The position numbers were made by a program, and so were the translations under genes. A DNA stretch of 64,000 nt from Tricholomella constricta. Its lineage: Eukaryota > Basidiomycota > Agaricomycetes > Agaricales > Lyophyllaceae. Position 1 is the first letter of the stretch. Each line of letters opens with the position of its first letter. Positions 31,569-52,330 of the stretch are shown piece by piece. The stretch lies in the NCBI GenBank assembly GCA_013368375.1, contig JAACJP010000009.1:310001-374000 (forward strand), written 5' to 3'. Under the pieces are notes generated by a model, which was not told where the DNA came from, did not search any database, and was given only the letters and a program-made list of their open reading frames with translations.

Positions 31569-34500
31569 TCAGTGCGGGGTGACGGTGGCGAAGACGGCGG
31601 GGGATAGAGTGAAGATGCCACGGATATGGCGCGCAGCATCAGGATTGTCGCGGTGGAACTTGCGAACCAGGTCGGGTGCGGCGACGTTCTCCCGGGGCTC
31701 CCACGAAGCTTCTTCATAGCCGTAGCCTTTCCACAAGATTTTGTACTGAAGTTTCTTGCGGAAGATGCGACTGTCAAGGATTTTGTGGACTTCGTAGTGG
31801 GGTTCGTCATCGATGATGTCTGGCGGCGGCGGAGGGTCGGACTGTCGACCTTCGATCGGGTCAGCGACGGCGGGGACAAGCTTTACGACGTGGAAGACCG
31901 GATGGATGCGCTTCATGGACTGAGGCAACAGAAGGCGATATGCGAGCGGGCCGACTCGCCTTTGCACGACGAAAGGGCCGAGGTAGCGATGCGACAACTT
32001 CTTAGATGGTCGGGTCGTAGAAATGTCGGCCGCGTCCAAGTACACCTTGTCACCCGGCTGGTAGTCAGGCGCTGGGGCGTGTCGCTGGTTGTAATACCGC
32101 TCCATGTCGTCCTTTGCCTTTGCAAGCGCCGCCTTAGCTTCCTCCTGGGCTTCCTTCATGCGCTCCACGAACTCTTCGGCTGACTCGTTCTTGGAAGCGC
32201 CCTGACGCGGCTCAAAGCCCATGCGCGGATGCCGACCAGTGTCGAGCAGGAAGGGGGTCTGTTGCGTCGCCGAGTGTACATGGTTGTTGTAACTGAATTC
32301 GGCGTCGGGCAACAGGTCCTCCCAGTCGTTCTGGTGCTCGTTGCAGAAGACCCGCAGGAATTGTTCCAGCTCCTGGTTGACGCGCTCAGTCTGCCCGTCG
32401 GTCTGCGGGTGGTACGCCGTCGAAGCTGACAGCTTGATACGCAGGAGTCGGTACAGCTCGCGCGTGAACTCGGCTACGAACTGTGGACCTCGATCGGAGA
32501 CGAATGCGTCGGGGAGACCGTGCAGCTTCCAGACGTGACGACGGTAGAGGTTGGCAGCTCCCAAGGCCGAACAGGTCGTGTGCGATGCGATGAAGTGCGC
32601 TCGCTTTCCGACCGAATCCACGACATTCATGATCGCGTCGTGGCCGTTGGACTCAGGGAGCTCAGTGATGAAGTCCACCGATACGACGTTCCAGCGACCT
32701 TCGGGGATTGGGAGCGGCTGCAGCTGTCCGACGGGGAGTTGGCGGCGGGGTTTCGTGCGCAAGCACATGTCGCAGGTGCTGGTGTAGGAACCGACAAAGC
32801 GCGACATCTGAGGCCACCAGTAGTTGCGCGACACCAGCTCTAACGTCTTCCAGTGACCCGGGTGACCGGCGATCTTGGAGTCGTGGTGTTGTTCCACAAT
32901 GCGTCGGCGAAGGTCAGGAACGTTCGGGACATAGATCCGTCCACGGAACGTGAGCAGACCGCCTTCCTCCCCCCACTCGCCGAAGCGTAGGGAGCGACCG
33001 GCAATCTTGGATGCCTTGACCAGTTGCGCTGCTTTCGCGACCGCGTCCTCCTGTGCGCCGTCGCGATTGCCCTTGCGAATCGCCTTCAGCACATCGTCTT
33101 CTTCTCCGACCAGTACCAGACCCTCGGTCGCACGGATCGCGAAGAACTCGGGTTTGAGGAGCACGATGTCGGCATTGTCGCCACTTCCGTCGCCGTGATC
33201 AGCGCGACGCGACAGGGCGTCGGGTTTGCCCATGCTGCGTCCCGGACGGTGGTGGAGGGTGAAGTCGAAGTTGGCGAGGTAGAGCGACCAGCGGGCTTGC
33301 CGCCGATTGAGTTTCTTCGCGGTGAGGAAGTACTCAAGGTTTTTGTGGTCGGTCAAGATCTCTACCTTGTGTTTTGCGCCTTCCACAAAATGTCGCCACT
33401 CCTCCAGAGACCGGATGATCGCCAGCATCTCCTTGTCGTGGATCTCGTAGTTCCGCTCGACTGCGTTCAAGCTCTTCGAGTAGAACGCGACCGGGTGCCA
33501 CTTGCCATCAGATGGCGACTCTTGTGACAGGACCGCGCCCGTCGCGAAGTCGGACGAATCAGCTTCGATGCGGTACGGTCGGTCGTCGTCGGGGAATGCA
33601 AGCACTGGTCGCGACGTGATCGCAGACTTCAGGAGGTCAAAGGCCGACTGTTCCGACGCTTCCCAGCGCCAGGCAACGTCCTTGCCCGTCAGATCGAACA
33701 GGGGTCGGGCGTGGTGCGAGAAGTCCTGGATGAACCGTCGGTAGAAATTGGTGAAGCCCAAGAACGCTTGCACCTCCTTCTTGTTCCTCGGCGCCGGCCA
33801 CTCCGACACTCCAGCGACCTTGACCGGATCCATTTCCGCTTGCCCGTGCGAGATGATCAGCCCAAGATACTCGACCTTGGTCTGTTCGAACTCGCATTTC
33901 TCGGGTTTTAAGAACAACTTATGTTCGCGGAGTCGGTCCAGTATGAGTCGCGCGACCCGACGGTGTTCCTCAAGAGTCTTGGTGTAAATCAAGATATCGT
34001 CGAGGTACACGCAAACAACACCCTCGGCGATCAGATCGCGGAAGATGTCATTCATCATGGTCTGGAATGTGGCGGGGCTGTTCGTGAGGCCGAAGAACAT
34101 GACGAGCGGCTCAAAGAGACCGCGGTTCGTCCGAAACGCTGCCTTCCACTCGTCGCCTTCCTTGATCCGAACGTTGTTGTACCCCCATCGGACGTCCAGC
34201 TTGGTGAAGTACCGCGCGCCGCGGAGGTTGTTCACCAGTTCGCTAATGAGTGGTAGTGGGTACCGGTTCTTCACCGTAAGCGCGTTGAGTGTCCGATAGT
34301 CCTGCACCAGCCGGAGCGCACCATCCTTCTTCTTGATGAAGAACACTGGCGAAGCCATGGGTGACTTCGACGGACGGATCCGACCCGACTCGAGGTTCTC
34401 CTTGAGGAACGCATCGAGCTCGACTTGCTCCGCCGGCGACAGTGGGTAGACTTTGGTGCCGGACGGCGAAGCTCCCGGCTCCAACTCAATCGCGTGATCC

Positions 34501-35581
34501 CACTGTTTGCGATCGGGGAGTTCATCAAACGCGACCTTGGAGAAAACGTCCTCAAAGTCGTGGAGGTGGGTCGGAACGGCGTCCCGGAACGACTTGGGCA
34601 CAGAGTTCGCGGCATGCGCTTCCGCGAGTCGCTGCGATGTCGTTTGACTGGCACGGATGTGCGCCACAGTCGGAGGAGGGTGGATCGCAGTCGCAAAGAT
34701 GCGGTCGCCGTTCAGGAAGGTCTCCGCAAGGAAGTCGTCCGACTCTGGATCGGGTTCCTCCATGACTGGGGTGTAGGGGAGGAATTCATCCGTGTCAGAG
34801 TCGTCCTCGACGTAGGGGCTGGTCGGGGCACGCAGATCCGGCTCTGTGGTCGGAATTCCTTCCGCCCGACAGGCCCGAATGGCAGCTCGCAGTTTGGTGC
34901 GCGAGCGCCGCTCTTCCTTGGCCTCAACCTTGCAGGTGTCGCAACGCGACGGCGCCCGACACATTTTCACCCTCTTCGTCGCCCAATCAATGTCGGGGTT
35001 GTGGTCTCGAAGCCAGGTGAATCCGAGGATGAGATCCTGCTTCCCGATGCCTGCGACTGCGAACAGCACCCGTTCGGAGTGACCATCATAGCGTGGAACC
35101 GCGTCTACAACATATCCGATGGCGCCCGCTTGGTTAGGGGTTCCATCGACGTTATAGGCTAGTGTAGGGCGGTTTAACGGTCGGGTCTTCAGTTTGTGCT
35201 TCTCAACAAAGGCGGTGTTAATGAAGCATCCAGTGGCTCCGCTGTCAACGAGGGCAGAGAGCGAGTGCGTCTCCTGGGTGTCGGTGGTCTCAAGCTCGAC
35301 CTTGAGCGACAGGGATAAGGAGTCGGGGGAGGCGGCGATCACGAAGCGACGGGGTAGTCGTTTTTCCCAGCGTGGTAGTCCGCGACGCGACGGTGCGGTC
35401 GGCTTGGTCGGAGCGACCGACGGAGATGGCGATTGGCCCGGGAAGGATTGTACGTCTTCGTCGATTGGTTCACCCGTAGAAGTAGCAGCAATATTAAGTA
35501 TATTGGGGTACTCTACAGATAGGGGGGCGAACCGATTACGACTAGACAACGGGGGCGTACTTTTCACCCGTTGTGCGACTA
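31569..35581 (-). CDS. Gypsy-1 pol: protease, RT, RNase H, integrase, chromodomain
   Basis: About 1,335 codons, uninterrupted. Order: retropepsin VDSGATGCF; reverse transcriptase with VYLDDILIY (~34,010-33,990); RNase H (IEADSSDFATG); integrase zinc finger (H...H, CDMC) and DDE core (SVDFITELP, SDRGPQF, TDGQTERVNQ); C-terminal chromodomain (YEVHKILDS...LWKGYGYEEASWEP). That order is the Ty3/gypsy chromovirus one. The frame has no ATG near its start (the first in-frame start-like codon is GTG 35,567) and is -1 to gag, so a frameshift is needed. It looks competent. Confidence 0.92.
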
Positions 35582-35590
35582 AAAATCCTC
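35579..35590 (-). promoter_or_regulatory. candidate -1 frameshift site, Gypsy-1 gag/pol
   Basis: Minus strand GA-UUUUU-AG: gag's Phe UUU followed by UAG. The P-site tRNA can slip one base back onto UUU, after which reading continues UUA GUC into the pol frame, which is open on both sides. It is not a textbook X-XXY-YYZ heptamer; function is inferred. Confidence 0.45.
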
Positions 35591-36522
35591 TTCCGTGGCC
35601 AAGGCGGTCGGGTCGGCCGACTCGGGAGTCGGGTCAGCCGGGATCGCATCCTTGCGTGCCAGTAGCTGCATGATCAGCTCATCCAGTTCCTCCGGCATGA
35701 TGTGGCGCACGTCGAAGCGCAATGGACAGTCACGCCAGAAGTGCCCCGGTTGTTTGCACCGACGGCACTTGTCGTCGCGAACAGGGCGACCGGTGAATCG
35801 ATCAATGTCCATAGGGACACCGGGAGAAAGAGCTGGCGCTCGGGGGGCATGCGCGACATGCGTCGGAGCCGACACACGAGCAGGAGCAACTGGTTGCGCA
35901 GAAGGTCGCCAGTGGAGAGCGGGCGCGACTGGGTGCACGGGGACGAGGGCGGTCGGGCGACTAGCCGACGGGATGGTCGGAGGTGTCCGACGGTGGAAGT
36001 CCTCCTCAGTCCTCATGATGAAGTCCTGGGAGCGGGCGATCGCTAGCCAGTCCTCGATCTTGGAGTCGTTGGGCCGACCCGTGGTGATGCTTCCGAGTCG
36101 CTTCGAAAGCTTCGGGTCCATGCCCCGACGGAACTTGAGGACCAGGTGGCGACCATCCGGGTAGTCGGCCTTGACCCACAGGGCCTTGAACGAGTCTATG
36201 TACTCGTCGATGGTGCGCCCGTTCTGGAAATACGCCGTCGACTCGAGGATGAGCGCGGCGTCGGCGACCTCGTCAAACAGGAAGAACTCCTTCTCGAAGT
36301 TCGATACGAAGTCGTCCCAGGTCGGGAATGCGCGCTTCACCGACCCGCACTGAAAGACGCGACCGACGAAGTCAGCAGCGCGACCGTGTTGCATGAACGA
36401 CAACACCCAGCTAATTCGGGCGTGGTCGTCGGTGAACTGCCCGGTGGTCAGCGAGAAGTAGAGCTGACACGCATTCCAGAAGGCACGTCCGCCCGATCGT
36501 GCGCCATCGTAGGTGGGAGGAG
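35579..36522 (-). CDS. Gypsy-1 gag, C-terminal part
   Basis: Retroviral-type Gag body (TFLD-like helices, residues after the Gypsy-2 insertion) and zinc knuckle CRRCKQPGHFWRDC, ending GAT TTT TAG at 35,579. The N-terminal 91 codons are at 47,800-47,532. With Gypsy-2 and one TSD copy removed, the two parts join in frame to about 405 residues. Residues read between 36,565 and 36,528 come from the Gypsy-2 LTR. Confidence 0.85.
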
Positions 36523-36527
36523 GCGAC
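36523..36527. repeat. Gypsy-2 target-site duplication GCGAC, left
   Basis: Matches 47,527-47,531 exactly. Confidence 0.92.
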
Positions 36528-36748
36528 TGTAACGGAGTTACAAGATTGGGGACCTTGCTGTGCACGCTAGACGTAAGCTTGACAAGTCTGTCAATTGCTA
36601 CGTATAGGTGTACAAGGTCTACTATTTAATTATGTAATGTAAAGGATTAAATAGGCAACACCGGAAGGTGTTGCCAAACAATAGCCTAATCGTGTCGATA
36701 AGATACGATTAGATCAGATTAGTCGATAAGATAGTAAGTGTCCTTACA
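36528..36748 (-). repeat. Gypsy-2 3' LTR
   Basis: Plus strand TGTAACGG...CTTACA. Contains a hairpin with 9-bp arms GGCAACACC/GGTGTTGCC and a GGAA loop (36,654-36,675), also present in the other LTR and the solo LTR. Confidence 0.92.
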
Positions 36749-36760
36749 TACCCCCCTTTA
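36749..36760 (-). promoter_or_regulatory. Gypsy-2 polypurine tract
   Basis: Minus strand AAAGGGGGGTA directly before the 3' LTR, the expected primer for plus-strand DNA synthesis. Confidence 0.7.
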
Positions 36761-37106
36761 AGATCGCTAGTAGTGATCTTCACCAGGGAGTAATGCAATA
36801 AGTAATAATAAAATTAAGGCAAGAGGGAGGGTGTAGGTCCCGGCGACCTACACCCAATATCGCCTGCACAGAAATACGTATTACTGGTACGTATTCATGA
36901 CCGAATACATAGTGGAGACAATAGTTCCACTAAACGGCCTCCAAGTGCCGCTCGAGGTGGCCTGGGATTGAGGACATCCGGTGTTGCGTATATTTGAGTA
37001 CGCGACCTGCGGTTTGCTCCTCGGGAGTAAGGTGGTATACACCTTACAATGGCGGTCGTCCTGACGATACCTCCTGCGTGTCGAGGTCGGTTCATTGACG
37101 GGGGGA

Positions 37107-40085
37107 TTAAGTTGTCTCCCCAACCACTGTGTCGGGGTCGGTGGGATTGGATTCCACCGGACCCTGGCTAGTGGTAATCACTGCCAGTGATAGAGGCCCT
37201 GTGAGGGCCGACACGGGGTCCACTTGGGTTTCGGTAGCTCCTATTGGAGCTGCCACGACTGTGGAGGGTGTCGCGGGGGCAGGTGTGAGTGCCGCCGGGT
37301 CCGCCATTTCGACGTTGGTAGACGTCGATCCCGATGGAGCGGGAGTGTGCAGGTCCGGAGGGGGAAACTCCCCTCTCCGAACACGGAGTTCTCGGAAATG
37401 TGGGTCTTCACCCACAAACATCCATTCCACGCTGGATAAACAGTCCAGCCCCTCGTTCTGAAACTCCAAGCACATTAACGTTTGAATGCGCGTGATGTCG
37501 TCGGTGGTGGGATGGTACCACCCGTCCCATTCCGGAATGGCGGGTGGCACGCCCAATTGATCGAGTCGACGAACGCGATCGTCGTCAACATTGTGGAACA
37601 GGTCCTTATGAGGACCTGCAGTAGAGTAGTTATGGTCTAAATAGTGTAGACCATAAGTATAGCTGTGGTTTATCCAACTAATTGGAATACCACAGTTAAT
37701 AAGGTGTTGTAGGACACCTTGTTCCGTCAGCCGCCCTTCGGGAGCGGTAGGTTGGATCCGAGGGATAATAACCTCGGGTCCGGTAATCGGCGTGAACGGC
37801 CGATCAGGGTTGGCCTCGTTATGGGCCGCCACCGCTTCTGCATAGAAGTATGGCCGTGCGGTGATGGTTGCGAAAATTCGCATAAACCATGCCCGCATAC
37901 TATGAGTTACTGGCGACAATACGTTCGCCAGTAAGTAGCCCCAGGTCCCGCGACGATGAACGCGGAACCGGTAGTCCATTACGATACCTCCATATTGGTT
38001 CTTAGAACCAATACGCCCATGGTGAATCATATGTCGACACCAATGTTCGACATCCAATGCATGAGCTGGGCCGGGTTGGGGAAGACCAGCTCCTCGTGTC
38101 GGCTTGTCATGCCGATATTCGAATGCTTTACCCGGCCGTCTAATGACCGGGGCATTCCAGATGGGTGACCGTTCACTGAACGGTCGTGAGATGCTTCGGA
38201 ATTCGTCCATGGCTGCACGAGCCATGGCTCGGTCGCGCAAGTGAGGCGCGACCGATAGGGTGATCCGACGGAATTCTCTGAAGAGCATAAAGGCCTCGGC
38301 CCGCTCTTCATCCCTCACCCCATGGCGTCGGTTATTGATCAGCTCATAGAGCTGATCAACTTCACGGGGGTTCATTGGGAACCCACGTGGTGCGACGGCA
38401 TACAGCCGTCCATCTGAGGGACGGGAGTTTTGTCCCGTCCCTAGCTCGCTCTCTGAGACGCGAGCTGCTGTGCCTAGCGCAAAGGCACGATTCTGGGCGG
38501 ACGACACATATACCGTCCGCGACACCATATCCCAGAAGCGGTTGTCCCGCTCGTGGCGGCCGTTGATAAAGACCACCCCAAGCTCTTCAGGGATCCGTCC
38601 CGGCGCCTCCTTCTCAGCTTTGCGAGCCATATTCTCGCGATGCTGCTTTTGCCCGGCAGCCTTCTTCTTGCTGACGGGTTTCTCGTCGTCGGAGGACTCG
38701 CCGTAGTCCGACTCGTCCATAAATTCGGCGTACGGGTCAGACGCCTTTTGTTTGCCTTTGCCCTTTGGCGGAGGCGATGGGGGCTGCACCATCGTAGTGG
38801 GTGGTGCAGGCGATGGTGCCGGCAAGGTATACTTGCCAACAGGTTCCTTCTTTTGGGAACCTCTCTCCGGGTTCCGTACCCGGCTTTCTCCCGGGGTCGG
38901 TAGTGGGAGTAATGCTCCCGCTATCTGTTGCTGTTGCGGTGCCTGCACCGCGGATGTCGACGCTGTCGACGCCCTTCGCTCGACTTCTCGAGCCGGTAAG
39001 GGACGCACTTCGCGCGTCCCTTGGTCCTCGCGACGCTCCTCTCGTTGAGGACCATAATCAAGTGGGCGCTCATCACGCCACACTTCTTGGTCGGGATGGC
39101 GGTCGAACCGCCGATACTCTTGTTCCGGGCGTCGTTCCTGACGCCTGGGTTCATATAAGGTGCGTTCTTCTCGCCGCACCTCGGTCTGCTGTCTTTTCAT
39201 GGGTCGGGACGATGGTCCCTCCCCGCGATCTGGCGACGCCACTGCCGGTCGCTTTTTTGCCAGGCTGAGTTGCTCAGCCATGGCCGACTCTCTCGCCTTC
39301 ACGCGTCTCAAGTCCGCGCGAACTCCATCGTACGCATCAAGCAGCTGGGTTACAACCAGCTGCGCCATCCCGTCGTCCAAGAAATCACAAAACTCGCGGT
39401 GAATACCCGTGTCTTCCAATCGGTCCAAGATAGACGAAAGGAGACCATCGTCTGCGAATGGTCTCCTCGAACTTGACGCAGACGACGCTGCGCGATCGTC
39501 TGCCGGCCTCCGCGAACTCGACGCAAACGAACCTCTTTGTTCGTCTGCATATGGCGCGACATATTGCCGCGCCGCTTCGCTGCGCGCCACTTGCGCCGGT
39601 GGAGTAGGTGTTTTTTGACGACTTTGGTCGTCCACCTCCATTTTCTCTGACTCGTTGTACCGCGTATTTTGCGGTACGATTGGGGCGGGCATTTGGGGGT
39701 ACCACGTCGGTGGTGGGTACCCCATGAAGCTCTGCATTGATGGCATATGTTGATATGCCATCGACGGTGGGTAGAACCCACCCGTCTGTGGTTGTTGCCC
39801 CTGCTGGGGCGGTTGGCTCATGTGGCCAACCATAGGGTATAGTTGTTGCCCCTGATGGGGCAGTTGCCCCTGGTGGGGCAGTTGGCTCATGTGGCCAACC
39901 GATGGGTATTGAAATGTTTGGGGCTGCACGCCCATATAGGTTGGGGGCGAGGGCGCGCTTTCCGCGCGTCCCTGCACCTCCTCCCCTTTTGGACTCGATC
40001 CCGAGGCCATATTTTGATAGTCGGTGCGGCTGTCGCCGCCCCGAGTCGCGTCGTTGCTTGAATTTGCTCCTGCAGTTGGGTACAT
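37107..40085 (-). CDS. Gypsy-2 third ORF, unknown accessory protein
   Basis: 992 residues from the first ATG (40,085; the open frame reaches back to 40,130), between pol and the 3' LTR on the sense strand. Residues ~1-450 are low complexity: Gln/Pro-rich with a repeated GHMSQ.P.QGQ motif (at least twice), Ser/Arg and Glu/Arg stretches. Residues ~480-520 are basic and Lys-rich. About residues 560-920 look globular (VVFINGRHERDNRFWDMVS, MLFREFRRITLSVAPHLRD, GTWGYLLANVLSPVTHSMRA). The tail is Pro/Thr-rich. No signal peptide or clear membrane helix, so not envelope-like by inspection. I do not recognise the family. Being intact in a young element suggests it is selected. Confidence 0.8.
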   Translation of the reverse strand: MYPTAGANSSNDATRGGDSRTDYQNMASGSSPKGEEVQGRAESAPSPPTYMGVQPQTFQYPSVGHMSQLPHQGQLPHQGQQLYPMVGHMSQPPQQGQQPQTGGFYPPSMAYQHMPSMQSFMGYPPPTWYPQMPAPIVPQNTRYNESEKMEVDDQSRQKTPTPPAQVARSEAARQYVAPYADEQRGSFASSSRRPADDRAASSASSSRRPFADDGLLSSILDRLEDTGIHREFCDFLDDGMAQLVVTQLLDAYDGVRADLRRVKARESAMAEQLSLAKKRPAVASPDRGEGPSSRPMKRQQTEVRREERTLYEPRRQERRPEQEYRRFDRHPDQEVWRDERPLDYGPQREERREDQGTREVRPLPAREVERRASTASTSAVQAPQQQQIAGALLPLPTPGESRVRNPERGSQKKEPVGKYTLPAPSPAPPTTMVQPPSPPPKGKGKQKASDPYAEFMDESDYGESSDDEKPVSKKKAAGQKQHRENMARKAEKEAPGRIPEELGVVFINGRHERDNRFWDMVSRTVYVSSAQNRAFALGTAARVSESELGTGQNSRPSDGRLYAVAPRGFPMNPREVDQLYELINNRRHGVRDEERAEAFMLFREFRRITLSVAPHLRDRAMARAAMDEFRSISRPFSERSPIWNAPVIRRPGKAFEYRHDKPTRGAGLPQPGPAHALDVEHWCRHMIHHGRIGSKNQYGGIVMDYRFRVHRRGTWGYLLANVLSPVTHSMRAWFMRIFATITARPYFYAEAVAAHNEANPDRPFTPITGPEVIIPRIQPTAPEGRLTEQGVLQHLINCGIPISWINHSYTYGLHYLDHNYSTAGPHKDLFHNVDDDRVRRLDQLGVPPAIPEWDGWYHPTTDDITRIQTLMCLEFQNEGLDCLSSVEWMFVGEDPHFRELRVRRGEFPPPDLHTPAPSGSTSTNVEMADPAALTPAPATPSTVVAAPIGATETQVDPVSALTGPLSLAVITTSQGPVESNPTDPDTVVGETT

Positions 40086-40210
40086 GTTGTGGTTGTTGGT
40101 TGAAAATTTGGTTGCGCGTCCTAGCGCCAAAACATATTTAACCTTCTGTCATAACTTTTGATGGTTATGTAATTTTTCTGATCGCCGTGATCACATGACC
40201 GCGCCACATT

Positions 40211-43200
40211 CTAGGTTCGTCGCGGCAACCTCGATGCGCTGCCCACCCCTTGCAATTCCAAGTAGCGGTCCAATGCCGCTAACTTGTTACAATTGTTGTG
40301 CGATTCCCAGGTGGTGTCACCTAGACTCCACCTAACTTGGTATTCCACTTTATTATTTTGGGTCCATCTATGGCCCAAAATCTCTTCGACAAACCATTCG
40401 TGATCGTCCGGCGCCCCAAAATCATAGGGCTCCGGGTGAGTTCTATTAGGGAACATTGCATCGTTTGTTGCGTAGTATGGGCGCAACAGCGATATGTGAA
40501 ATGTTGGATGTATTCGACGCTCCATAAGCGCCGTAGGTAATTCCAGCGTATAGTTCGACGTGTCTGGCATGGCCTTCAATACTTTGTAGGGCCCGACGAA
40601 TTTCGGACATAATTTCCGGGCGCGTCCCTTGGGAAGGTTCAAGTTCTTGGTAGATAAATATACCAAGTCACCCCCCTTTATTTCCGGACCAGTGGATCGA
40701 CGCCTGTTTGCCTCGCGCGTTTGAAATACGCGCGTTTCGATTATAGCGTCATGCGCCTCCGCTATGTTCTGCAATGCGCGTTCAGCGTATTCCCGAATTC
40801 CCTTTGGTATTACGCTGTCTGAGCGTATCTCTTTCAACATGGATGGCATGTATCCACCATTCAACTCAAATGGAGCGAACTTGGTGGTAGCCGATACGCT
40901 CGCATTTATCGCGAACTCGGCCATGGGTATACGATCTACCCAATCCTTTTGGTCATGCCTTACAACGGCACGAAATATCTGGCCAATACTACGATTGGCT
41001 CGTTCCGTCTGTCCATCCGTCTGAGGATGGAAAGATGTCGACATTAGAAGCTTAGCTCCTAATAATTTATGTAGTTCGCGCCACCAGCGCGAGGTAAACT
41101 TAGAGTCTCGGTCGCTTACGATCGAGCTTGGCAGGCCATGTAACCTGACGATTTCCCGTAGGTATACCCATGATAATTGGGCTGCCGTCATCGTCATATG
41201 TATGGGTATCATATGCACCATACTCGTCATACGACAAATTACTACCCATAGGTAGTTATATCCCTTTGATTCTGGAAATGGACCGATAAAGTCCATTCCG
41301 ATAGAATCCCAAGGCTTAGTGGGTACTGGCAGGGAATGTAGTTTCCCTAACGGTTTCTGATTTGACGTCTTGATCTGTTGGCAATACTCGCACGTTTTAC
41401 AAAACGTACGAACAGTCGTGGCTAGTGATGGCCACCAATACCATCGTCGAATATATTCAGTAGTCCGTTCGGCACCGAAATGGCCCATAGTTTTATGGGC
41501 TTGCTCAACAATTGACGTGATGATCTTGGGTTCTCGCGGTATGCATAGAACGCTATCATTTATAGCGTTCGTGGTCCAAATCAGATTGTCTTTCGTAGTG
41601 AACGTACGAAAGTCTGTTGGGTTAGTGAGAATCACTGAAAATAGTTTATCCTTTGGGTATCCCAGGATAACGTCGTTACGGATCTTTTCGTCCGTTTTGT
41701 CTGGGGGAGGGGCAACTGTGTCCCTTCCGAGGACCATATCTCCGACCGTACGTTCCCGTTCGGTTGGCCTCTGGCTTTTTTGAAGGTGTGACGATGGTCC
41801 GGATGCGATACTTGGTGCCGCAGCCTCCATTATCTGGGCTTCTACATCTCGATCCTCCTGGCGTTCTTGAAGACGCTTGCTTCGACGTATTTCTACGTCC
41901 TTCATCGCTCGAATTTCAACTACTTTTTCCACGATTTCATGGTATCGTGGTACTGGTAAATCTTCACCAGTAGGATCGATTCTAGCATCGGCAGCTACGA
42001 AGTCGTGGACGTCGTAACGATCGTGATGGTTATCGCTCTCGAAATATCGCGATAGACAGTCGGCGACTTTATTCAGTTCGCCTTTCACATAGGTAATGTC
42101 GAAGTTAAATCGCGACATGTATTCCATCCATCGACGCTGCCTAGGTGATAAATTCACCTGGGTCTTAAAGAATTCGAGGGCTTTGTGGTCGGTAATGATG
42201 TGGATTTTATAGCCCACAAGTTTATCCTCCCACTTAAGTAATGCTTCGAGGATAGCTAAGGTTTCGAGTTCATGCACGGCGTAATTCTGCTGTGCATTCG
42301 TGAATTTTTTGGACATGAATCCAGCCGGCTGAGCTTGGATCCATGTAGGTCCTTGACCATACATCGCACCGACGCCTGACTTGGAGGCGTCACATATAAT
42401 CCAAATTGGTTCGTCTGTCTTCGGTTGAATAGGCCGAATAATTGGCGTCGTGCAACATATATGCTTTATCATTTCAAAGCATCGTTGATGAATTGGTCTC
42501 CAATAGAATGGCGACCCATTCTCGGTCATCGCCATTAGTGGCCCAGTGTACGCGGATATATCTGGGAGGAATTGACCCAGATAATCAACCAATCCAACGA
42601 ATCGCTGTATATCGTTGTAATTCCGTGGAACCCTCCAATCGCGAATCCGTGCCAATTTATCGGCGTCGGGGTGAATTCCTTGGTTGTCGATTATATGACC
42701 AAGGCAATCGACGCGATCCGAATATAGTTCGCATTTCTTCCACTTCAAATAAAGGGACTGTTCGCATAATCGTTCGAACACTACTCGAAGATGATCTTCA
42801 TGTTCTTCGATGGAGTTCGAAAATATGAATATGTCGTCCAAGTATACATGCATAAACTTCCCAATGACGTCCCAAAAAATTGACGTCATTAATCGTTGAA
42901 ATGTTGCGGGGGCGTTACAGTCCCCGATCTGCATTATGTTGCTAACGTACGTTCCCGCTATCGTTGCAAAGGCGGTCTTGTGTACATCCTTCTCAAGGAT
43001 GCGTACTTGTTCATACGCATCCGTTAAGTCAATCTTTGATCGTATCTTCCCTCTGGCAACATCCTCGCGAATGATTTCTTGGTCTGGCAAGGGCGTAACA
43101 TCCTTGATCGTATTGTCGTTACGCTGCCGTGCGTCCAAGGGTGTTCTCAGGGAGCCGTCTTTTTTCGGGATGCATAGCAGCGGCGCTGCTTGCTTTACCG

Positions 43201-44110
43201 AACGAGGCTCCCACCATTTAGAATCTGTATACCGATTGACCTTCGCGTAGAATTCCTCGCGAAGGGACATTGGGCACCTCGGCGCGTGGTACTGGTACTG
43301 TTTCTCATTGTCGACGAGAGTAATCTCGTGATTGACTTCCCGCCAGGGTGGTAGCTGTTGTTTCGTACCACCCACCATATCTTCGAATTCGTCATGCCAT
43401 TGCTGGCGAAGTCGTGGATAATCTTCCGCGGTAAGGCCTCCATTGGGTGCCTTACCTTTTCCGTTCACCGTTCTTGCAGCGCGAATGTGCGCTGTGTCTT
43501 TATTGCTGGGTTTAACATCAAACCTAGCTCGTAGTTTTACGAGAGCAAAGTCACTCTTATCCTTCACTGGTAACCGATACAACGGCCGTTTAGCCCGTTG
43601 TATATTCACCAGAAAATTCATTTCCATTGGCTCCGATACTTCCTCAGGCCGTGGATTTCGGTACGCTTGTCCTCGCGTGCCTACATTTCTTCCTTCGTGA
43701 GCCCGCATTGACGCTATTACTGCGTTCCATTCTTGCGGCATCCGTGGGTCGAACATCCACTCATATTGTGGATGTGGATTTGGTCTATCCCAAAATGATC
43801 GATTACTCGCATTCGTATACGGCTCTGATTCCGTATCCTTATCGGCCCCGCTCGTCTTACGCGCTTCATTATCGCACTGGCGTTCTTCACATGGCTCGTG
43901 AGTCCGTGCTCGTTCGTTCGAAGGCTCGTTTTGTGCCTTCTGCTGTTGTCGTTGGGGTTTTCTCTTCTTCGGAGGTGGCTTATCCCCCTCCTTAAGAGTT
44001 TCTTGAAACTCTTCATCGGATAATAGAAGTGCTGGGTGATCCTTTGGTAGGCTGTTTATCGGCCTACCCTCGTTATCAGGATCATCATCATCTTCTACTG
44101 TGACTTTTAG
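40211..44110 (-). CDS. Gypsy-2 pol: RT, RNase H, integrase, chromo-like end
   Basis: The frame is continuous with gag after a UGA stop. The first 118 codons, including PPPKKRKPQRQQQ, contain no ATG; the first ATG is 43,756. Then reverse transcriptase (VYLDDIFIFS, ~42,847-42,830), RNase H (IICDASKSGVGA), integrase zinc finger (H...H, CEYC), DDE core (GMDFIGPFPES, SDRDSKF, TDGQTERANR) and a chromodomain-like end (WFVEEILGHRW...WSLGDTTWES). The protease is not here but at the end of gag. About 1,300 codons with no breaks. Confidence 0.92.
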   Translation of the reverse strand, partial: LKVTVEDDDDPDNEGRPINSLPKDHPALLLSDEEFQETLKEGDKPPPKKRKPQRQQQKAQNEPSNERARTHEPCEERQCDNEARKTSGADKDTESEPYTNASNRSFWDRPNPHPQYEWMFDPRMPQEWNAVIASMRAHEGRNVGTRGQAYRNPRPEEVSEPMEMNFLVNIQRAKRPLYRLPVKDKSDFALVKLRARFDVKPSNKDTAHIRAARTVNGKGKAPNGGLTAEDYPRLRQQWHDEFEDMVGGTKQQLPPWREVNHEITLVDNEKQYQYHAPRCPMSLREEFYAKVNRYTDSKWWEPRSVKQAAPLLCIPKKDGSLRTPLDARQRNDNTIKDVTPLPDQEIIREDVARGKIRSKIDLTDAYEQVRILEKDVHKTAFATIAGTYVSNIMQIGDCNAPATFQRLMTSIFWDVIGKFMHVYLDDIFIFSNSIEEHEDHLRVVFERLCEQSLYLKWKKCELYSDRVDCLGHIIDNQGIHPDADKLARIRDWRVPRNYNDIQRFVGLVDYLGQFLPDISAYTGPLMAMTENGSPFYWRPIHQRCFEMIKHICCTTPIIRPIQPKTDEPIWIICDASKSGVGAMYGQGPTWIQAQPAGFMSKKFTNAQQNYAVHELETLAILEALLKWEDKLVGYKIHIITDHKALEFFKTQVNLSPRQRRWMEYMSRFNFDITYVKGELNKVADCLSRYFESDNHHDRYDVHDFVAADARIDPTGEDLPVPRYHEIVEKVVEIRAMKDVEIRRSKRLQERQEDRDVEAQIMEAAAPSIASGPSSHLQKSQRPTERERTVGDMVLGRDTVAPPPDKTDEKIRNDVILGYPKDKLFSVILTNPTDFRTFTTKDNLIWTTNAINDSVLCIPREPKIITSIVEQAHKTMGHFGAERTTEYIRRWYWWPSLATTVRTFCKTCEYCQQIKTSNQKPLGKLHSLPVPTKPWDSIGMDFIGPFPESKGYNYLWVVICRMTSMVHMIPIHMTMTAAQLSWVYLREIVRLHGLPSSIVSDRDSKFTSRWWRELHKLLGAKLLMSTSFHPQTDGQTERANRSIGQIFRAVVRHDQKDWVDRIPMAEFAINASVSATTKFAPFELNGGYMPSMLKEIRSDSVIPKGIREYAERALQNIAEAHDAIIETRVFQTREANRRRSTGPEIKGGDLVYLSTKNLNLPKGRARKLCPKFVGPYKVLKAMPDTSNYTLELPTALMERRIHPTFHISLLRPYYATNDAMFPNRTHPEPYDFGAPDDHEWFVEEILGHRWTQNNKVEYQVRWSLGDTTWESHNNCNKLAALDRYLELQGVGSASRLPRRT

Positions 44111-44113
44111 TCA
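44108..44113 (-). promoter_or_regulatory. leaky stop UGA-CUA between gag and pol
   Basis: Gag ends GAA UGA CUA AAA; the pol frame continues with no other stop. UGA followed by CUA is a well-known readthrough context in viruses and cellular genes. The absence of an ATG for 118 codons argues against reinitiation. Confidence 0.7.
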
Positions 44114-47100
44114 TTCTCTTCGTTTCTCCAATGACCGATGGCGTCTAACTCGGCCATCGGTATCCTCCATTTTTACTTTAGTCGCTGGTGTAGCGACTCC
44201 ATTGACGACAATTTCGTCACGGTTATAGTCCAGCACGACGTTGTTTGCGCGCATAAACGGCGTGCCTATAATCACGTCGTATCGATCAAAGTTAGCAAGG
44301 TCCATGTAAACCTTGCCTTTAAACCCTGGAAGAACGGCTTCCACCGTCGTGCCAAAATTTACTGTGGCCCGACTTCCTTTAGTTCCGAGCTGGAGGATTA
44401 ATGGATCCTCCAACGGAAACACTCGAATATCGGCCACTTGAGCAAATGACGGCGTAAGTCCGGTAGTCGTATTCCCGGAATCCCAGAGGGTCCAAGCCTC
44501 ATGTCCACCTACATTAATGTAGGTGACCAGGCACTCCTTGTCCTTTATCGGGACTACGGGACGAGCAATCTTGTCCCTACCCGTCCGCACTTTCACTTTA
44601 CGACTTGGTGGTTTATCATTGCGTTCTTCTGACGCAATGACTTCTGTCATTGCAAACATATGCTCGGTCTCATCGTCCCGAGCATAATATTCATTTTCGT
44701 AGACCTCCATATCTACGAACTCATCGCCTTCGTCTTCATTGTCCGCCTCGGTCTCAGGGCGTCCCTTGTCTCGTCCGTCCGGGTCCTCGGGAGAAGTATC
44801 TTCGTCGTCCGCCTCACTTGCTGCGTCAGGTGCCGCTGTACGTGCGGCCCGTAGGAACGCTCGCTGTTTCTTGGGCTGTTTGCAATCTTTTGCAAAATGC
44901 CCTAGTTTCCCACAATTAAAGCACACTTCCCCCGGGGGGTGGTTGTGATGATCGTGGTTTTTGGTTTGATCGTAACACGGACGATCTCCCGTCTTCATCG
45001 CTGGTTTCTCGACGTGGAGCTTTTGCTCTCCACGTCCCGGTTGATCCTGATACGCTAGCTTGGCGTATGGTTTTTCATTAAGTGCGCCAAACACACGTCG
45101 AGTCCTGTTGAAATTGTTTTGTGGGGTGTTTACTCGCCCCCCATCTGGTTTCCGCGGTTGACTCGGTTGATTTCGCTGAGCGGTTATGTTCCGCTCAAAG
45201 TAATCAGCCGTCTTCTGGGTGGCTTGGTGTGCTAAGCCCACCGCTAGGAACTCTTGGGCCGTGTTGATTTCGGGTGATAGCCCGTCATCGAATAATGCCT
45301 TCCGCATCTCACGCGGAAGTGTCTTGAGGAATTTCTCCAGGAACGTCCAATCGTCCGTTCTTGCTGCCATATTCATGGTGTGGTCCACAAGGTCATCATA
45401 TAAACCTTGTATTCCTTTGCTCGCCGAGTAAGTAACGGCATTAAAGTCGTTACGAGCATCTTGCATGGTTGAGGGTAGCACGAACCGGTCATACAATCCA
45501 AGTACGACGTCTTCAAACGTCCAGAACTGCTTCTCGCGGTTCACATGTATAACGTGGCGATTGTACCACTTTCGAGCTTCGCCATCGAGAAACTCGGATG
45601 TTATCAGAACGCGCTCTTGGTCGCGTTCTTCTCCTCCAAACTGGCTCACTGCCAGCATCACGACGAGGCTCGACAGCCATTCTTCAAGGTCGCCGAACTT
45701 TGCACTTCCACTATAAGTGCCTACGGACTTTGAGTCCGCACGCCGAGATTTCATCCCGTCCGGAAGCGACAGTCGTACCGACAAACGCTCGTGCATTAAT
45801 TGATGCAATCGCTCATGCATCTTAGTTTTATGCTGCTCTCCGGCAGCATGTATTCCGTCCGCAATTGATTGACTCCGGCGGATCGGAGCAGGCATTGAAT
45901 AGCCTCGAGTCTGAGCTCGAGGCTGCGCATATTCCGCGGGTTCACTTATTCGAACCCGCATGTCTCGACGACCGTTAGCTATCGCCGTCGAATTATTCTT
46001 TTCGACGGCTTCCAATCCAGTTACTAACCCACCATCCAAACCTTGAGTTTGCGAGGCCCATTGCCTCGCCATCTCATCCACAGGCATATGTCCTTCAAAG
46101 ACGACTCCTTGGTCGTCATAATTCGTGAACTTGCTCCGTGATAGATCAGCATTTCTCAGACGCTGGTAAGCGATCCGGTTGTTCCACTCTTTCGCTAATG
46201 GAACACGGCCATCCTTAGCCTCCGGAGGTACTTGAATAGCTGGCACGCTTTCAGTGCCAGCTAGTTGCGAATTCGTGTCCTTACGCTCAGTGGGTGGGTC
46301 TAATGTAGACTCACTAACAGGGGCCCATCGGGAACCTTGTGGTTGTGCAAGGTGCTCTTCGCGAGTCATTCTTTCGCGTTTCGCTGCCGCGGCCCGACGA
46401 CGATAATCGTCGTCAGATTCTCCTAACTGGCGCGCTTGATGCAGCGCAGATACTGCCATAGCAGCCTCATCAAGAGGCTGGTTCGATCCCGAGGCCACTG
46501 CTTGCGGGGTGAAAAGGTCATCCCAACGACCTTTTCCTTTGTTGAGCGGAGCTTTCTTAGGTATAGGAGTCCCAGCGATCGAGCTGACTGCTGAATTCGA
46601 AGTTCCCTTAGGGTACTTCTTCCTGTATTCCGTAACTACTACAGACAGCGCTTCCAAGTATCGGTCGGCATACTCCTGTACGACCATTTCTCCAACGGAC
46701 TGTGCTCCGGTTGATCGTAGATTGAGCCTATCCGCTCGTTCCTCTAGTCGTCTTCGTCGATGTTCGCTAACAACATCGGTGGTGTCCCAGAATTGCTTCA
46801 CTTTTAGCGCCAGCAATTCCCTATCGCTGGCTTCTTCTTCATTGGCCTCGGGGTCGGACAAGTCGTCTTCGTCCGACTCCATCTTGACTATGCTCAGGGT
46901 GGACGCCCCGAACGCTCTACTTGACAGACGGCTGTCTGGCCATCTGCTTCCTGCCGTGGGGCCAGGTCGATATGACCTGGCCAATTCGTCGGCCAAGCTC
47001 CCCGGCACATTGGTGCTTGCTATCGGCCAAGGTTCCTCCGATTCTAATCCTAGTGTATTCTGCGCTGGTGGACTTTGTCCACCAGCGACTGATCCGACTT

Positions 47101-47197
47101 CCACTGGTTGCAGTGGAAGTTGTGATGGAGGATGCGCTGCGAGCGCATCCTCGAAGACCGGAGTTCGGCTCTTTCTGGATGTGGGAGTTGGTGTCAT
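44111..47197 (-). CDS. Gypsy-2 gag with C-terminal protease
   Basis: 1,028 residues from ATG 47,197. A long acidic/Ser-rich N-terminus, a capsid-like segment (EEWLSSLVVMLAVSQ...GEARKWYNRHV), zinc knuckle CFNCGKLGHFAKDC, an acidic linker, then a retropepsin-like domain with active site LWDSGNTTTG and the IIGTPFM flap-side motif. It ends UGA (44,113-44,111) directly followed by CUA, in frame with pol. The large size compared with usual gypsy Gag comes from the N-terminal extension and the fused protease. Confidence 0.9.
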   Translation of the reverse strand: MTPTPTSRKSRTPVFEDALAAHPPSQLPLQPVEVGSVAGGQSPPAQNTLGLESEEPWPIASTNVPGSLADELARSYRPGPTAGSRWPDSRLSSRAFGASTLSIVKMESDEDDLSDPEANEEEASDRELLALKVKQFWDTTDVVSEHRRRRLEERADRLNLRSTGAQSVGEMVVQEYADRYLEALSVVVTEYRKKYPKGTSNSAVSSIAGTPIPKKAPLNKGKGRWDDLFTPQAVASGSNQPLDEAAMAVSALHQARQLGESDDDYRRRAAAAKRERMTREEHLAQPQGSRWAPVSESTLDPPTERKDTNSQLAGTESVPAIQVPPEAKDGRVPLAKEWNNRIAYQRLRNADLSRSKFTNYDDQGVVFEGHMPVDEMARQWASQTQGLDGGLVTGLEAVEKNNSTAIANGRRDMRVRISEPAEYAQPRAQTRGYSMPAPIRRSQSIADGIHAAGEQHKTKMHERLHQLMHERLSVRLSLPDGMKSRRADSKSVGTYSGSAKFGDLEEWLSSLVVMLAVSQFGGEERDQERVLITSEFLDGEARKWYNRHVIHVNREKQFWTFEDVVLGLYDRFVLPSTMQDARNDFNAVTYSASKGIQGLYDDLVDHTMNMAARTDDWTFLEKFLKTLPREMRKALFDDGLSPEINTAQEFLAVGLAHQATQKTADYFERNITAQRNQPSQPRKPDGGRVNTPQNNFNRTRRVFGALNEKPYAKLAYQDQPGRGEQKLHVEKPAMKTGDRPCYDQTKNHDHHNHPPGEVCFNCGKLGHFAKDCKQPKKQRAFLRAARTAAPDAASEADDEDTSPEDPDGRDKGRPETEADNEDEGDEFVDMEVYENEYYARDDETEHMFAMTEVIASEERNDKPPSRKVKVRTGRDKIARPVVPIKDKECLVTYINVGGHEAWTLWDSGNTTTGLTPSFAQVADIRVFPLEDPLILQLGTKGSRATVNFGTTVEAVLPGFKGKVYMDLANFDRYDVIIGTPFMRANNVVLDYNRDEIVVNGVATPATKVKMEDTDGRVRRHRSLEKRRE

Positions 47198-47305
47198 CGG
47201 GTCTGGGTCTCGTGGGTTCTTTTGATGATGGGTGTTCTAAATGGAATGTGGTTCTGCGTAATGTCGTGGGTACGCAGCAATAGAAAGCAAGGTAGCTTAA
47301 AAAAA

Positions 47306-47526
47306 TGTAACGGAGTTACAAGATTGGGGACCTTGCTGTGCACGCTAGACGTAAGCTTGACAAGTCTGTCGATTGCTACGTATAGGTGTACAAGGTCTAC
47401 TATTTAATTATGTAATGTAAAGGATTAAATAGGCAACACCGGAAGGTGTTGCCAAACAATAGCCTAATCGTGTCGATAAGATACGATTAGATCAGATTAG
47501 TCGATAAGATAGTAAGCGCCCTTACA
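47306..47526 (-). repeat. Gypsy-2 5' LTR
   Basis: 221 bp; differs from the 3' LTR at three places by eye (G/A near 47,359 and two C/T near 47,517-47,520). Confidence 0.92.
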
Positions 47527-47531
47527 GCGAC

Positions 47532-47800
47532 GTCCGAATGTGCGATCCTGATCGCGGAGGGGGAGACGTCGGCGAGGGTTGTGCCGGCGTCGCGGGGGTC
47601 GTAGATGCTGCTGGGGAGGCAGCGCAGGGGTTCCCCAAAATGAGGGTATCTAAAAGAGAGGAGATGCGGTCCAGGGTGGCCGAGTTGGAGGTTTGGGTGT
47701 GGGAGAGAGCCGATATCGTGGTTTCGAGGCTCGCCAGTCGCTCTTCTGGCGTAAGCGCAGGGGGAGACGATGGCGTGTCAAAATCACCGAATTCGGACAT
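47532..47800 (-). CDS. Gypsy-1 gag, N-terminal part
   Basis: From ATG 47,800 (MSEFGDFDTPSS) to the Gypsy-2 insertion: an acidic start and a short heptad-like helix (LASLETTISALSHTQTSN). Continues at 36,522. Confidence 0.8.
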
Positions 47801-47928
47801 CTCAAGACGGGGCTGGGGCGATGATCGGAGCGGGCGCGTGTTGGACGGGTTGCGTGTAGCAGACACGTGTTTCGACGCGGAAGCTTGATCGGTTGGCCTC
47901 GCCGGGTCTTAGGTTTAGTCTATTCTGC

Positions 47929-48397
47929 TGTTAGGGCGACCTCACGAGCAGAGCTGAGTCGTACTGGCAGAGGGGAATCCGAAGTTATATTAAGTACAGT
48001 GAGGAATGTAAAGAGGGGCTTACCTGGCAGAGGGGAATCCGAAGAGAATAGACTAAGGATCCCCAATGCCAGTGGGCCGACTATATACGAGTACTGTACA
48101 TAATAATCAAGGAATGGTCTGCGGCGCGTGTATGGACACGTTCCCGACGCTGTCCGATCCTCGTGGCTCAGGGTACGGGCACGAGTTGGGACAGCCGACG
48201 TCGGGATGTCGGGTGGTCGGGATCGGCGTCGGGCGCGCGCAGGGAGAGATGGGAACGACAGGAAGTGTGTAAGTATATACACCGACGCTTGGGTCGGAGC
48301 GTCGGGGGTCGGGATCGCGAACGGTCGGGGGAGCGATCGCATGAGCGGGGGGACGGTCGGTGAGCGTCGGAGGGCGCGAAAGGGGGTTCCCCTAACA
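47929..48397 (-). repeat. Gypsy-1 5' LTR
   Basis: 469 bp, related to 31,038-31,541 but clearly diverged, with several indels. Confidence 0.88.
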
Positions 48398-50336
48398 GCC
48401 GCCACAATGAACTCTTACAGGAAAAGGCACATGCACGCGCTGAGGCACGCGCACTCGTTGACGTCGACGAGCCCCCACAGCCTGAGCAGCTGTGGGATGT
48501 CGATGTCGGCCCTGCTGACCCTGTCGGTGAGCAAGAGGTTGACCTCGTGGTTAATCTCGCCTCTGCTGAGGCATTGGCCGCTGCAGGGCGCGCATACGTC
48601 GAGCACGGCATCAGTCCAGGAGGCTACGGGGTTGCCTTCGCTGCTTTTGCAGATGGCGAGAGCGCGCACAAGGTTGGCGCACACGATTTGAACCCTAAGT
48701 TGTTTCGCGAGGCCATGCAGAGCGACCACGCTGCCCAATGGCATGAGGCGATGTGCAAGGAAATGAACGCCCATGATGCCAATGGCACATGGCGTGTTGT
48801 TTTCTTCCTGCAGGCAAGAAAACCATCGGATCCCGATGGGTTTTCAAGGTCAAACATCTCCCTGACGGGGCGATTGACCGTTTCAAAGCGCGCGTTGTGG
48901 CGCAGGGTTTTAGCCAGTGCCCCGGTGTTGATTTCGACGAGACGTTCGCGCCAACGGCGCGTTGGAATGCTGTCCGAACCATCCTTGCACTTGCTGGATC
49001 CGAGGACTTGCACCTCGAGTCTGTCGATATCACGGCAGCTTTCTTACACAGTGACATTGACTGTAGCGAAATCTACATGCGTTTACCTGACGGTTTCCCT
49101 TTGCAGCCGCCGCCCGGCACTACGCGCGCACTTGGAGAAGGTGTGCCTGTTGGACACATACGTAAGGGCGTGTACGGTCTCAAGCAAGGCACTTTCCTCT
49201 GGCACAAGCTTCTTCACAAGGTGTTCCTGTCGCTCGGGTTCACTCGCATCGTATCTGATCCCTGTGTATATGTCTACCTGCGCGGTGAGGTGCGTATCAT
49301 AATCCCAGTTCATGTCGACGACATGACACTCGCCTCCGCGTCTATGCCCGCCATCTTGCGCACCATCGAACAACTACGCGCACACTTCAAATTGCGCAAT
49401 CTTGGTCCTACTACTGGCCTCCTCGGTGTTCGCATTACTCGTGACCGCGCCAACTGCATGCTTTGCATTGATCAGCGTGCATATGCCATTGAGGTTCTCG
49501 CGCGTTTCACCATGCTCGAGTCGAAGCCTGTCGCTACCCCAATGGAGCCGGGACTACGCCTTTCCAAGGCTCAGTGCCCTAGCTCGTGCGCTGAGGAGGA
49601 TGAGATGCATACTGTCCCTTATATACAGGCGACAGGCGCACTTCTCTATCTTGCCATGTGCACCCGCCCCGATATAGCCTTCGCGGTGGGAGTTTTGTGC
49701 CGTTTTAACACAAACCCGGGGCTCGCGCACTGGAAAGCGGTAAAGCATCTTTTGCGCTATGTTCGAGGCACTCTCAATTACCGTATCAAGTACTCCGCCG
49801 CCGCCGCTGCATTAGCGCCCTCAGGAGCGCTTTTCCAAACGTTCTCTGACGCCGATCACGATGGCAATATCGATACCGGGCGCTCCACTACAGGTACCGT
49901 CCTCATTGTTGCTGGTGGCGCTGTTAGCTGGCGCAGCCATTTACAGAGCATTGTCGCGCTTTCCACCACGGAAGCTGAGTTCGTCGCTGCCAGCGAAACC
50001 GGCCGTGAACTCTGCTGGCTACGCAATTTCCTCGCCGACATCGGTTCTTCACAATCTGGGCCTTCCATCATGAACATCGACAACCAGTCCGCGATCTCTG
50101 TCAGTCGGCACCCCGAGCACATGGGCCGTCTGAAACACCTCGATCGTCACTGGTTCTGGCTCAGGCAAGCCATCGCCGACGGCAAAATCACGCCAATGTT
50201 CATCCCTACCTCCCTCATGACCGCCGACTTTCTTACAAAAGCCCTCTCCCGCGATCTCGTCGACAAGTTCCGGCGACAAATGGGTTTGATTGGTACGTGG
50301 TCTAGGGACCCCGTAGATAAGTCTCCGGTGATGTAG
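48398..50336 (+). pseudogene. copia pol, RT-RNase H half
   Basis: Starts in the linker before the reverse transcriptase. One base is missing near 48,805: the frame of ALVDVDEPP... must shift to reach GKKTIGSRWVFKVK. The RT has the copia VDDM form (IPVHVDDMTLA), and RNase H ends with ALSTTEAEFVAASE, then DRHWFWLRQAI and DFLTKALSRDL before TAG 50,336. A polypurine tract (CAGGTGGGAG, 50,352-50,361) precedes the 3' LTR. With the frameshift and no integrase, the element cannot move by itself. Confidence 0.9.
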
Positions 50337-50361
50337 TCAGAGGCACTTCATCAGGTGGGAG

Positions 50362-50641
50362 TGTCGCAGGTGTATATTTTTCTTCCTTACCTATTACTAC
50401 TTACCGTTTCCTTATCTCTCTTGATCGCTTAACACGTGACACGCATACCATCCATTATCCGTAGATGTAGAGTTTCTCCTTAGCTACTCTTTCATCTAAC
50501 ACTGGACCCCAGGTATGCCATACTCATAATATATCAGCTACTCTTTCATCTAACACTGGACCCCAGTCTTTTGTGAGCTAGCCGGAAGTTTTCTCTTGGG
50601 ACTCTTCGGTCTCTGTCATTCCCGTCTACCCTCGTTCAACA
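50362..50641 (+). repeat. copia 3' LTR
   Basis: 280 bp; four differences to the 5' LTR by eye. Confidence 0.92.
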
Positions 50642-51128
50642 GAAAGAGCTTCAACTTTACCCCTCCTGCTGTTGACTGCTGTTGCTGTTGAATTCTCTTT
50701 AATCAGCCTGACTTTGCTGATATGCCCACTCTCCTCGAAACACATTGTGCTGCTCGTGGATTTAAAGTTATATTCCTTCCCAAATTTCATTGTGAACTTA
50801 ACTTTATTGAACAGTGTTGGGGCTATGCAAAATGTCTGTATAGGCTCTGTCCAGAGTCCTCTCGGGAAGATCAGCTCGAAAAAAATGCCCTCGAATGTTT
50901 GGATGCGGTCCCGCTAGAATCAATGCGCCGGTGAGCATTTTCCCGTGTCATTTTGTCCCTTGATTGATGTATTTGATCAGATTTGCAACGTGCTCGCGTC
51001 GTTTCATGGTCGCATATCAAATGGGACTCAACGGAAGGCAAGTTGCCTGGGCTGCAGGGAAATACAAGGGCCATAGAGTCTTGCCTGAGAGCATTCTGCG
51101 CGAATTGGAGGCTGCCGGGGTGCAGTAG
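50642..51128 (+). pseudogene. DDE transposase, C-terminal part
   Basis: Continues the frame broken at 29,090. Holds LPKFHCELNFIEQCWGYAK with the third catalytic residue, Glu (50,809-50,811). A 50-nt intron (50,931-50,980) precedes the last exon (SRRFMVAYQMGLNG...), which stops at 51,126-51,128. One premature TGA at 50,689-50,691 stands where an Arg codon would be expected. With the A-run shift upstream, this makes the transposase inactive even without the copia. Confidence 0.85.
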
Positions 51129-51336
51129 GCAAGCATCTTACTGATTCTACTAATAATGTTGCAAAAACTTTCTCAATTCTTGTTAGCCTTCTTATTCCTT
51201 GTAGCACACTATTAACGTTACATATAGCTATACTTTGACCGTCTTACATTTGTTTCAATATAGTCCTTTGTCTTGCAGCAACCGAATCTCTTGACTTTCA
51301 CCCAATTTGGAGGCGAGCATCACGGAAAAGTAACAT

Positions 51337-51372
51337 CATGTGATGTTGGTGGAGTATGGATGTCGTCTACCT
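51337..51372. repeat. DDE transposon right inverted repeat
   Basis: Reverse complement of 26,928-26,963 with three mismatches; TA follows at 51,373. Confidence 0.9.
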
Positions 51373-51374
51373 TA

Positions 51375-52325: not shown

Positions 52326-52330
52326 GGTAT
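52326..52330. repeat. Gypsy-3 target-site duplication GGTAT, left
   Basis: Matches 63,855-63,859. Confidence 0.9.

Follow-up and report, generated by a model that had tools for sequence, protein, structure and literature searches.

Ty3 of yeast (Ty3/Gypsy, Metaviridae) is a retrotransposon whose RNA has dispersed structured regions, and the portion of PMC11381356 available to us describes the Ty3 and Ty1 RNAs as mosaics in which stable regions make up as much as 30% of the RNA. Whole-genome encoded structure is already known from RNA viruses, and genome-scale ordered structure, running across coding sequence beyond the level of shuffled controls, is the subject of PMC3950689 (excerpted text). 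The leviviruses MS2 and Qbeta likewise have coding RNA genomes with a surplus of local stems. In addition, template-switch mutations create and maintain hairpins, and according to the accessible part of PMC8794818 these have perfect stems and an asymmetry between arms that places G-C over C-G and U-A over A-U. Here we describe a fungal retrotransposon, Gypsy-2, that is saturated with roughly 100 perfect stem-loops, which are short and vary in sequence. The available text of PMC11381356 does not describe perfect short hairpins running end to end in Ty3 RNA; compared with the ordered structure considered in PMC3950689 (again as excerpted), the stems of Gypsy-2 are short, mostly all-Watson-Crick, near-constant in span and equal on the two strands.

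Gypsy-2 (36528-47526, minus strand) lies in a window of 64,000 nucleotides of Tricholomella constricta, contig JAACJP010000009.1, and is a Ty3/Gypsy LTR retrotransposon, recent and high in copy number. It has two 221-nt LTRs that are 99% identical (5′ LTR, 47306..47526; 3′ LTR, 36528..36748; both minus) and a short flanking target-site duplication, GCGAC (36523..36527 on the left, 47527..47531 on the right). In the gag-like ORF1 (44111..47197, minus) a zinc knuckle passes the Pfam cut-off, and matches to gag and to the retroviral protease fall below it. The pol ORF (40211..43756, minus) encodes reverse transcriptase, RNase H and integrase in that order, all with Pfam matches above cut-off, and ends after the integrase in a chromodomain-like match below cut-off (19.6 bits; cut-off 25.1). 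A putative polypurine tract, AAAGGGGGG (36751..36759, minus), is assigned by its position adjoining the 3′ LTR. The LTRs, the zinc-knuckle gag-like ORF and the order of the pol domains are as in Ty3; unlike Ty3, Gypsy-2 has a third ORF downstream of pol (ORF3, 37107..40130, minus, 1007 codons). ORF3 has no Pfam match, its AlphaFold model is of low confidence (mean pLDDT 37.2), and its relatives, three among 7990 candidates scored, are all named Lyophyllum (family Lyophyllaceae); one of them (P0122) sits in a record named tannase/feruloyl esterase. The low-complexity start of ORF3 holds a 54-nt direct repeat, 85% identical (39787-39909). Two scans of IMG/VR returned no relatives, and a phage search with the first 252 residues of pol gave no match, as expected.

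Two further observations concern the ends of the element. The LTR end AGCAAGGT (47330-47337) is complementary to ACCTTGCT (47286-47293), which lies directly past the LTR at the expected primer site, and the two may form a self-priming pair. In addition, the gag-side ORF of the neighbouring Gypsy-1 (35579-36565) extends into the Gypsy-2 LTR (36528-36565); Gypsy-2 therefore seems to be nested inside Gypsy-1, and the other half of Gypsy-1 would be expected to the right of 47531.

In the whole of Gypsy-2 there are 99 non-overlapping perfect hairpins with arms of at least 7 bp. A sequence-only reading of the window had named 17 hairpins, and all 17 proved to be exact inverted repeats at the positions given, two of them 1 bp longer than reported. 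They comprise hairpins with arms of 11 bp (36829..36855, loop 5 nt; 38335..38359, loop 3; 47063..47087, loop 3; 47128..47152, loop 3), of 10 bp (37993..38013, loop 1; 38417..38442, loop 6; 39439..39467, loop 9; 39739..39762, loop 4; 47097..47120, loop 4), of 9 bp (38998..39022, loop 7; 41548..41570, loop 5; 42863..42890, loop 10; 45901..45924, loop 6; 46396..46414, loop 1) and of 8 bp (36873..36895, loop 7; 37027..37047, loop 5; 43430..43456, loop 11). The same reading had the hairpins filling the element from end to end, inside coding sequence and outside it, and this holds: there are 31 in ORF1, 26 in pol, 30 in ORF3, two in each 221-nt LTR and one in the 108-nt leader. Its view that they are not one DNA repeat is also upheld, as the single direct-repeat family besides the LTRs (minimum length 30) consists of two copies of 54 nt. 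Its description of the form needs adjusting. Arms of 7-11 bp agree with our counts, but the loops, most of them 3-12 nt, range between 0 and about 20 nt rather than 1 and 14; and the mean start-to-start distance of 110 bp fits the proposed one hairpin per 100-150 bp, but the spacing is random. With gaps of mean 87 and sd 85, a regular, beaded arrangement is rejected. No motif common to the hairpins, such as a coat or nucleocapsid protein might read in dispersed packaging signals, was visible by eye among the 99 loops listed, and Rfam gave no match at gathering score.

This load is far above that of shuffled controls of both kinds. Between the LTRs (36749-47305) we counted 95 perfect inverted repeats (arm at least 7, loop 1-15) against 6.5 ± 2.0 in 20 dinucleotide shuffles, and 30 against 0.5 when arms were at least 9. 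In 100 synonymous-codon shuffles, which preserve the proteins and codon usage, the means were 3.2 for ORF1 (maximum 7), 3.4 for pol (maximum 9) and 3.4 for ORF3 (maximum 8). For loops of 3-15 the excess sets in at 1.4-fold with 5-bp arms, is 4.2-fold with 6-bp arms and climbs to 57-fold with 9-bp arms. Stems of eight pairs tell the same story: 102 are all Watson-Crick, compared with 1.9 in shuffles. Both shuffle types and the stem counts thus reject chance or base composition as the cause of the hairpins.

Arms of at least 7 give 9.0 hairpins per kb between the LTRs, similar to the density in the LTRs themselves, and other sections of the window have 0.4-1.5 per kb. Seven other ORFs (two from Gypsy-1, two from Gypsy-3, two copia pieces and one candidate host gene) contain 0-2 hairpins each, against shuffle means of 0.4-4.0. 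The claim that Gypsy-1, the copia element and host genes lack the pattern is thus largely right, except for a small copia surplus: the copia piece at 48789 has two hairpins with arms of at least 8 where 0.39 are expected, and section 47306-53000 has six where 1.0 is expected, two of these being in the Gypsy-2 LTR. The copia stretch to the right of Gypsy-2 (48001-50000) holds four such hairpins in 2 kb. Gypsy-1 pol (31569-35567, minus) has one hairpin against 4.0 in synonymous shuffles, possibly a mild avoidance. Elsewhere in the same genome, 30 loci surrounding other RVT_1 matches contain no hairpin with an arm of at least 8, and arms of at least 7 occur there at 0-0.57 per kb; these loci appear to represent a small number of families, 20 of them sharing a score of 143.4 bits.

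The hairpins have a characteristic size. Mean spans are 25.4 nt for arms of 8, 26.1 for 9, 25.3 for 10 and 25.5 for 11, so that longer arms go with shorter loops (rho -0.45, p 0.0002; 62 hairpins with arms of at least 8 and loops up to 20). The correlation is weak once arms of 7 are included (-0.11) and nil once arms of 6 are. The standard deviation of the span is 3.8, against 4.6 with loops permuted (p 0.0002), and the hairpin excess dwindles past spans of about 35 nt. The trend recurs in a second subfamily of the element (33 hairpins, rho -0.37, p 0.035), which has many hairpins in common with the first. The 5′ arms favour G over C (0.324 vs 0.235) and T over A (0.236 vs 0.206). Features such as these are what one would look for if the reverse transcriptase snapped back on the nascent strand and copied one arm from the other, making and keeping hairpins with no benefit to the element. 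The outer span stays near 25.5 nt while the loop varies, as it would if each copying event covered a single-stranded stretch of set length; the stems are mainly Watson-Crick, without a preference for G-U; the arm bias is the asymmetry that PMC8794818, in its available part, ascribes to template switching; and none of the other elements and genes that we tested showed a comparable load. Such an origin makes predictions about how arms change, and these can be compared with the changes seen among copies of the element.

Copies are plentiful. The 44.1-Mb genome (118 contigs) contains no fewer than 39 full-length pol copies, some of them interrupted by stops, whose protein identity is 96-100%; a search with the integrase part, in which 150 of 692 candidates were scored, gave roughly 80 copies or fragments with identities of 79% or higher, followed by families near 54% and 40%. 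We read 30 copies and compared the 27 with equal pol length, leaving out three whose pol is 3 nt shorter; 17 lie within 2% of the window copy and 10 at 4.5-6.5%, and each of the 27 has 23-31 hairpins in pol. Along the alignment, one pol copy from the group of 10 (L030) is near one Gypsy-2 subfamily, then the other, then the first again, and looks like a recombinant between them.

One hairpin, at 42997..43022 (arm 9, loop 8), was followed across families; it overlies the DAYEQVR peptide of the reverse transcriptase. The search pattern displays 15 of the 18 arm positions of this hairpin, and at these 36 of the 37 Gypsy-2 copies with letters listed are perfectly paired; letters were available for 61 of 134 pattern matches, and the pattern fixes the peptide and so misses copies with other residues. 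These 36 include one copy of an 85% subfamily, and their first loop base is T or C. By place or sequence, 16 copies were assigned to the 54% family, and these lack the hairpin; in eight assigned to the 40% family it is imperfect, three of the eight being off by a single T-G pair.

Between subfamilies, paired positions are conserved, the arms having changed two to three times less than the sequence around them. Copies L001 and L026 diverge in pol by 0.030 in arms and 0.071 outside, a difference that shifted masks reach in 0.2% of cases, and at third positions by 0.080 and 0.161 (2% of shifts). In the ORF3 part the values are 0.065 and 0.175 (0% of shifts), with codon positions 1, 2 and 3 at 0.056, 0.042 and 0.097 in arms against 0.125, 0.132 and 0.265 outside. 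Core pairs change at 0.019-0.028, and the innermost pairs, at 0.080-0.098, come close to the background rate (about 0.083). Loops in ORF3 diverge by 0.153, close to the outside rate; in pol they are also low, at 0.042, between arms and outside, and something other than pairing may account for part of the signal there. By comparison, private variants of resident copies land freely on paired positions: in the 20-copy subfamily arms and outside are alike (36 of 706 vs 208 of 4637 columns), and in the 9-copy subfamily the counts, which are small, are 4 of 833 arm columns and 34 of 4498 outside. We infer that private variants are mostly post-insertion mutations; as these are unconstrained, the constraint on arms seems to act during replication of the element.

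These divergences bear directly on arm copying. Without correction or selection, template switching should not let arms diverge more slowly than their flanks, yet they do. Moreover, about half of arm-copy restorations would carry the mutation across, and unbiased copying therefore predicts about 11 Watson-Crick double changes between subfamilies; only one was found (P 0.0002, from a simulation using pairs with acceptance rates assumed from codon-position divergence). Changes of several bases within one arm are also few: of 12 distinct hairpins that carry more than one change, 10 have changes in both arms and two in one arm only. Multi-base one-arm changes and paired double changes, which would be expected of template-switch hairpins like those of PMC8794818, are thus nearly absent here. 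A correction biased to reversion would evade the double-change test. On balance we think it unlikely, though worth serious attention, that snap-back copying with no benefit to the element accounts for the hairpins. The sequence-only reading had offered template switching that keeps perfecting quasi-palindromes; as the maintaining force this is disfavoured, but its role in origin may hold, and template switching may have made some of the hairpins originally. The scarcity of double changes also cuts the other way: the comparison of copies bears out constraint on the arms, but with a single Watson-Crick double change the classical covariation support is thin.

Whether the constraint is on ordinary RNA structure can be judged from the type of pair that is tolerated. 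Selection for stability of the sense RNA alone, genome-wide as in some plus-strand RNA viruses, would agree with local folds far more stable than those of shuffles (mean z -2.84 over 73 windows along Gypsy-2, against -0.66 for Gypsy-1, -0.43 for Gypsy-3 and +0.10 for a host stretch), with loops that are A-rich in the sense strand (0.358 vs 0.284), and with arms conserved and loops less so. However, the antisense strand folds as well as the sense (-2.78), and G-U pairs are no better tolerated than A-C, which counts against such selection. Single mismatches between subfamilies number 14 G-U, 16 A-C and 14 other (split by direction, 8 and 6 for G-U, 4 and 12 for A-C), in a comparison that dropped 10 of 54 and 8 of 59 hairpins for gaps or over 35% mismatch. 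Within Gypsy-2, eight-pair stems with one G-U number 39 against 6.4 in shuffles (6.1 times) and those with one A-C number 48 against 8.8 (5.5 times).

MS2 has 5 eight-pair stems that are all Watson-Crick, 15 with one G-U and 11 with one A-C, and Qbeta has 10, 16 and 9, so stems with one G-U outnumber all-Watson-Crick stems in both, in contrast to 39 and 102 in Gypsy-2. Enrichment over shuffles for G-U and A-C is 10.2 and 4.0 in MS2 and 5.2 and 3.6 in Qbeta; this contrast with Gypsy-2 is suggestive, the phage controls displaying it solely for 8-bp stems and hardly at all at 6-7 pairs. Perfect hairpins are also two to four times fewer per kb in the phages (2.2 in MS2, 4.3 in Qbeta). The signature of sense-RNA selection, in which G-U is tolerated and the sense strand folds better, is thus not seen in Gypsy-2, with the proviso that the G-U control is weak under 8 bp, and we consider sense-RNA stability alone an improbable explanation. 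The earlier suggestion of selection for a beaded RNA structure fares unevenly: constraint between replicating lineages supports it, but the spacing is random and a tolerance of G-U over A-C is absent.

Pairing might also protect rather than be selected: if it guarded arms from damage or copy error while single-stranded, hairpins of other origin would last longer. Arms that change less between replicating lineages and not among private variants, and G-U and A-C changes that are about equally frequent, are in keeping with this. Such shielding nevertheless leaves the origin of the hairpin excess unexplained. In addition, few hairpins are in the phase that sets third codon positions opposite each other (20 of 87, p 0.024), as expected if hairpins were mostly built from synonymous changes, and this points to selection within codon freedom. 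We regard shielding as very improbable. Placement of hairpins at conserved protein sites is rejected for pol, in which arm codons are no more conserved as protein than the rest (0.622 vs 0.632 mean identity to 19 homologues).

The explanation we favour, and hold to be probable without being secure, is selection in the RNA or cDNA phase for many small, perfect stem-loops whose sequence is indifferent. Under such selection point substitutions would gain and lose hairpins, breaking them would lower replication, and copies with broken local self-complementarity would be removed in the RNA/cDNA phase. The hairpins might keep the genomic RNA and cDNA locally folded, and such folding could perhaps pack the nucleic acid more tightly into the particle and keep segments as long as a small RNA out of reach of host silencing. 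Candidate benefits are compaction on a local scale and protection from small RNAs or nucleases of the host. A narrower form of this idea is that the hairpins camouflage the element against the small RNAs of its host: if each stretch of about 25 nt were self-complementary, both the target RNA and a guide from either strand would fold on themselves and could not pair. A span near the presumed length of small RNAs would suit camouflage, and so would stems that are mostly Watson-Crick, strands that fold alike, a lack of dependence on sequence, codon or ORF, and arms constrained between replicating lineages only; as a specific proposal we nonetheless rate camouflage as a long shot.

Full-text searches of open-licence PubMed Central papers turned up no report of an element like Gypsy-2. 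Gypsy-2 is a retrotransposon with two to four times the hairpin density of MS2 and Qbeta, and the form of its hairpins, with no G-U preference, a near-constant span and strands alike, is not predicted by normal RNA-folding selection. Because at least 39 full-length pol copies reside in one genome, changes in resident copies can be separated from those in replicating lineages, and structure selection can thus be tested directly against template-switch mutagenesis. Something in the life cycle of Gypsy-2 seems to need these hairpins.
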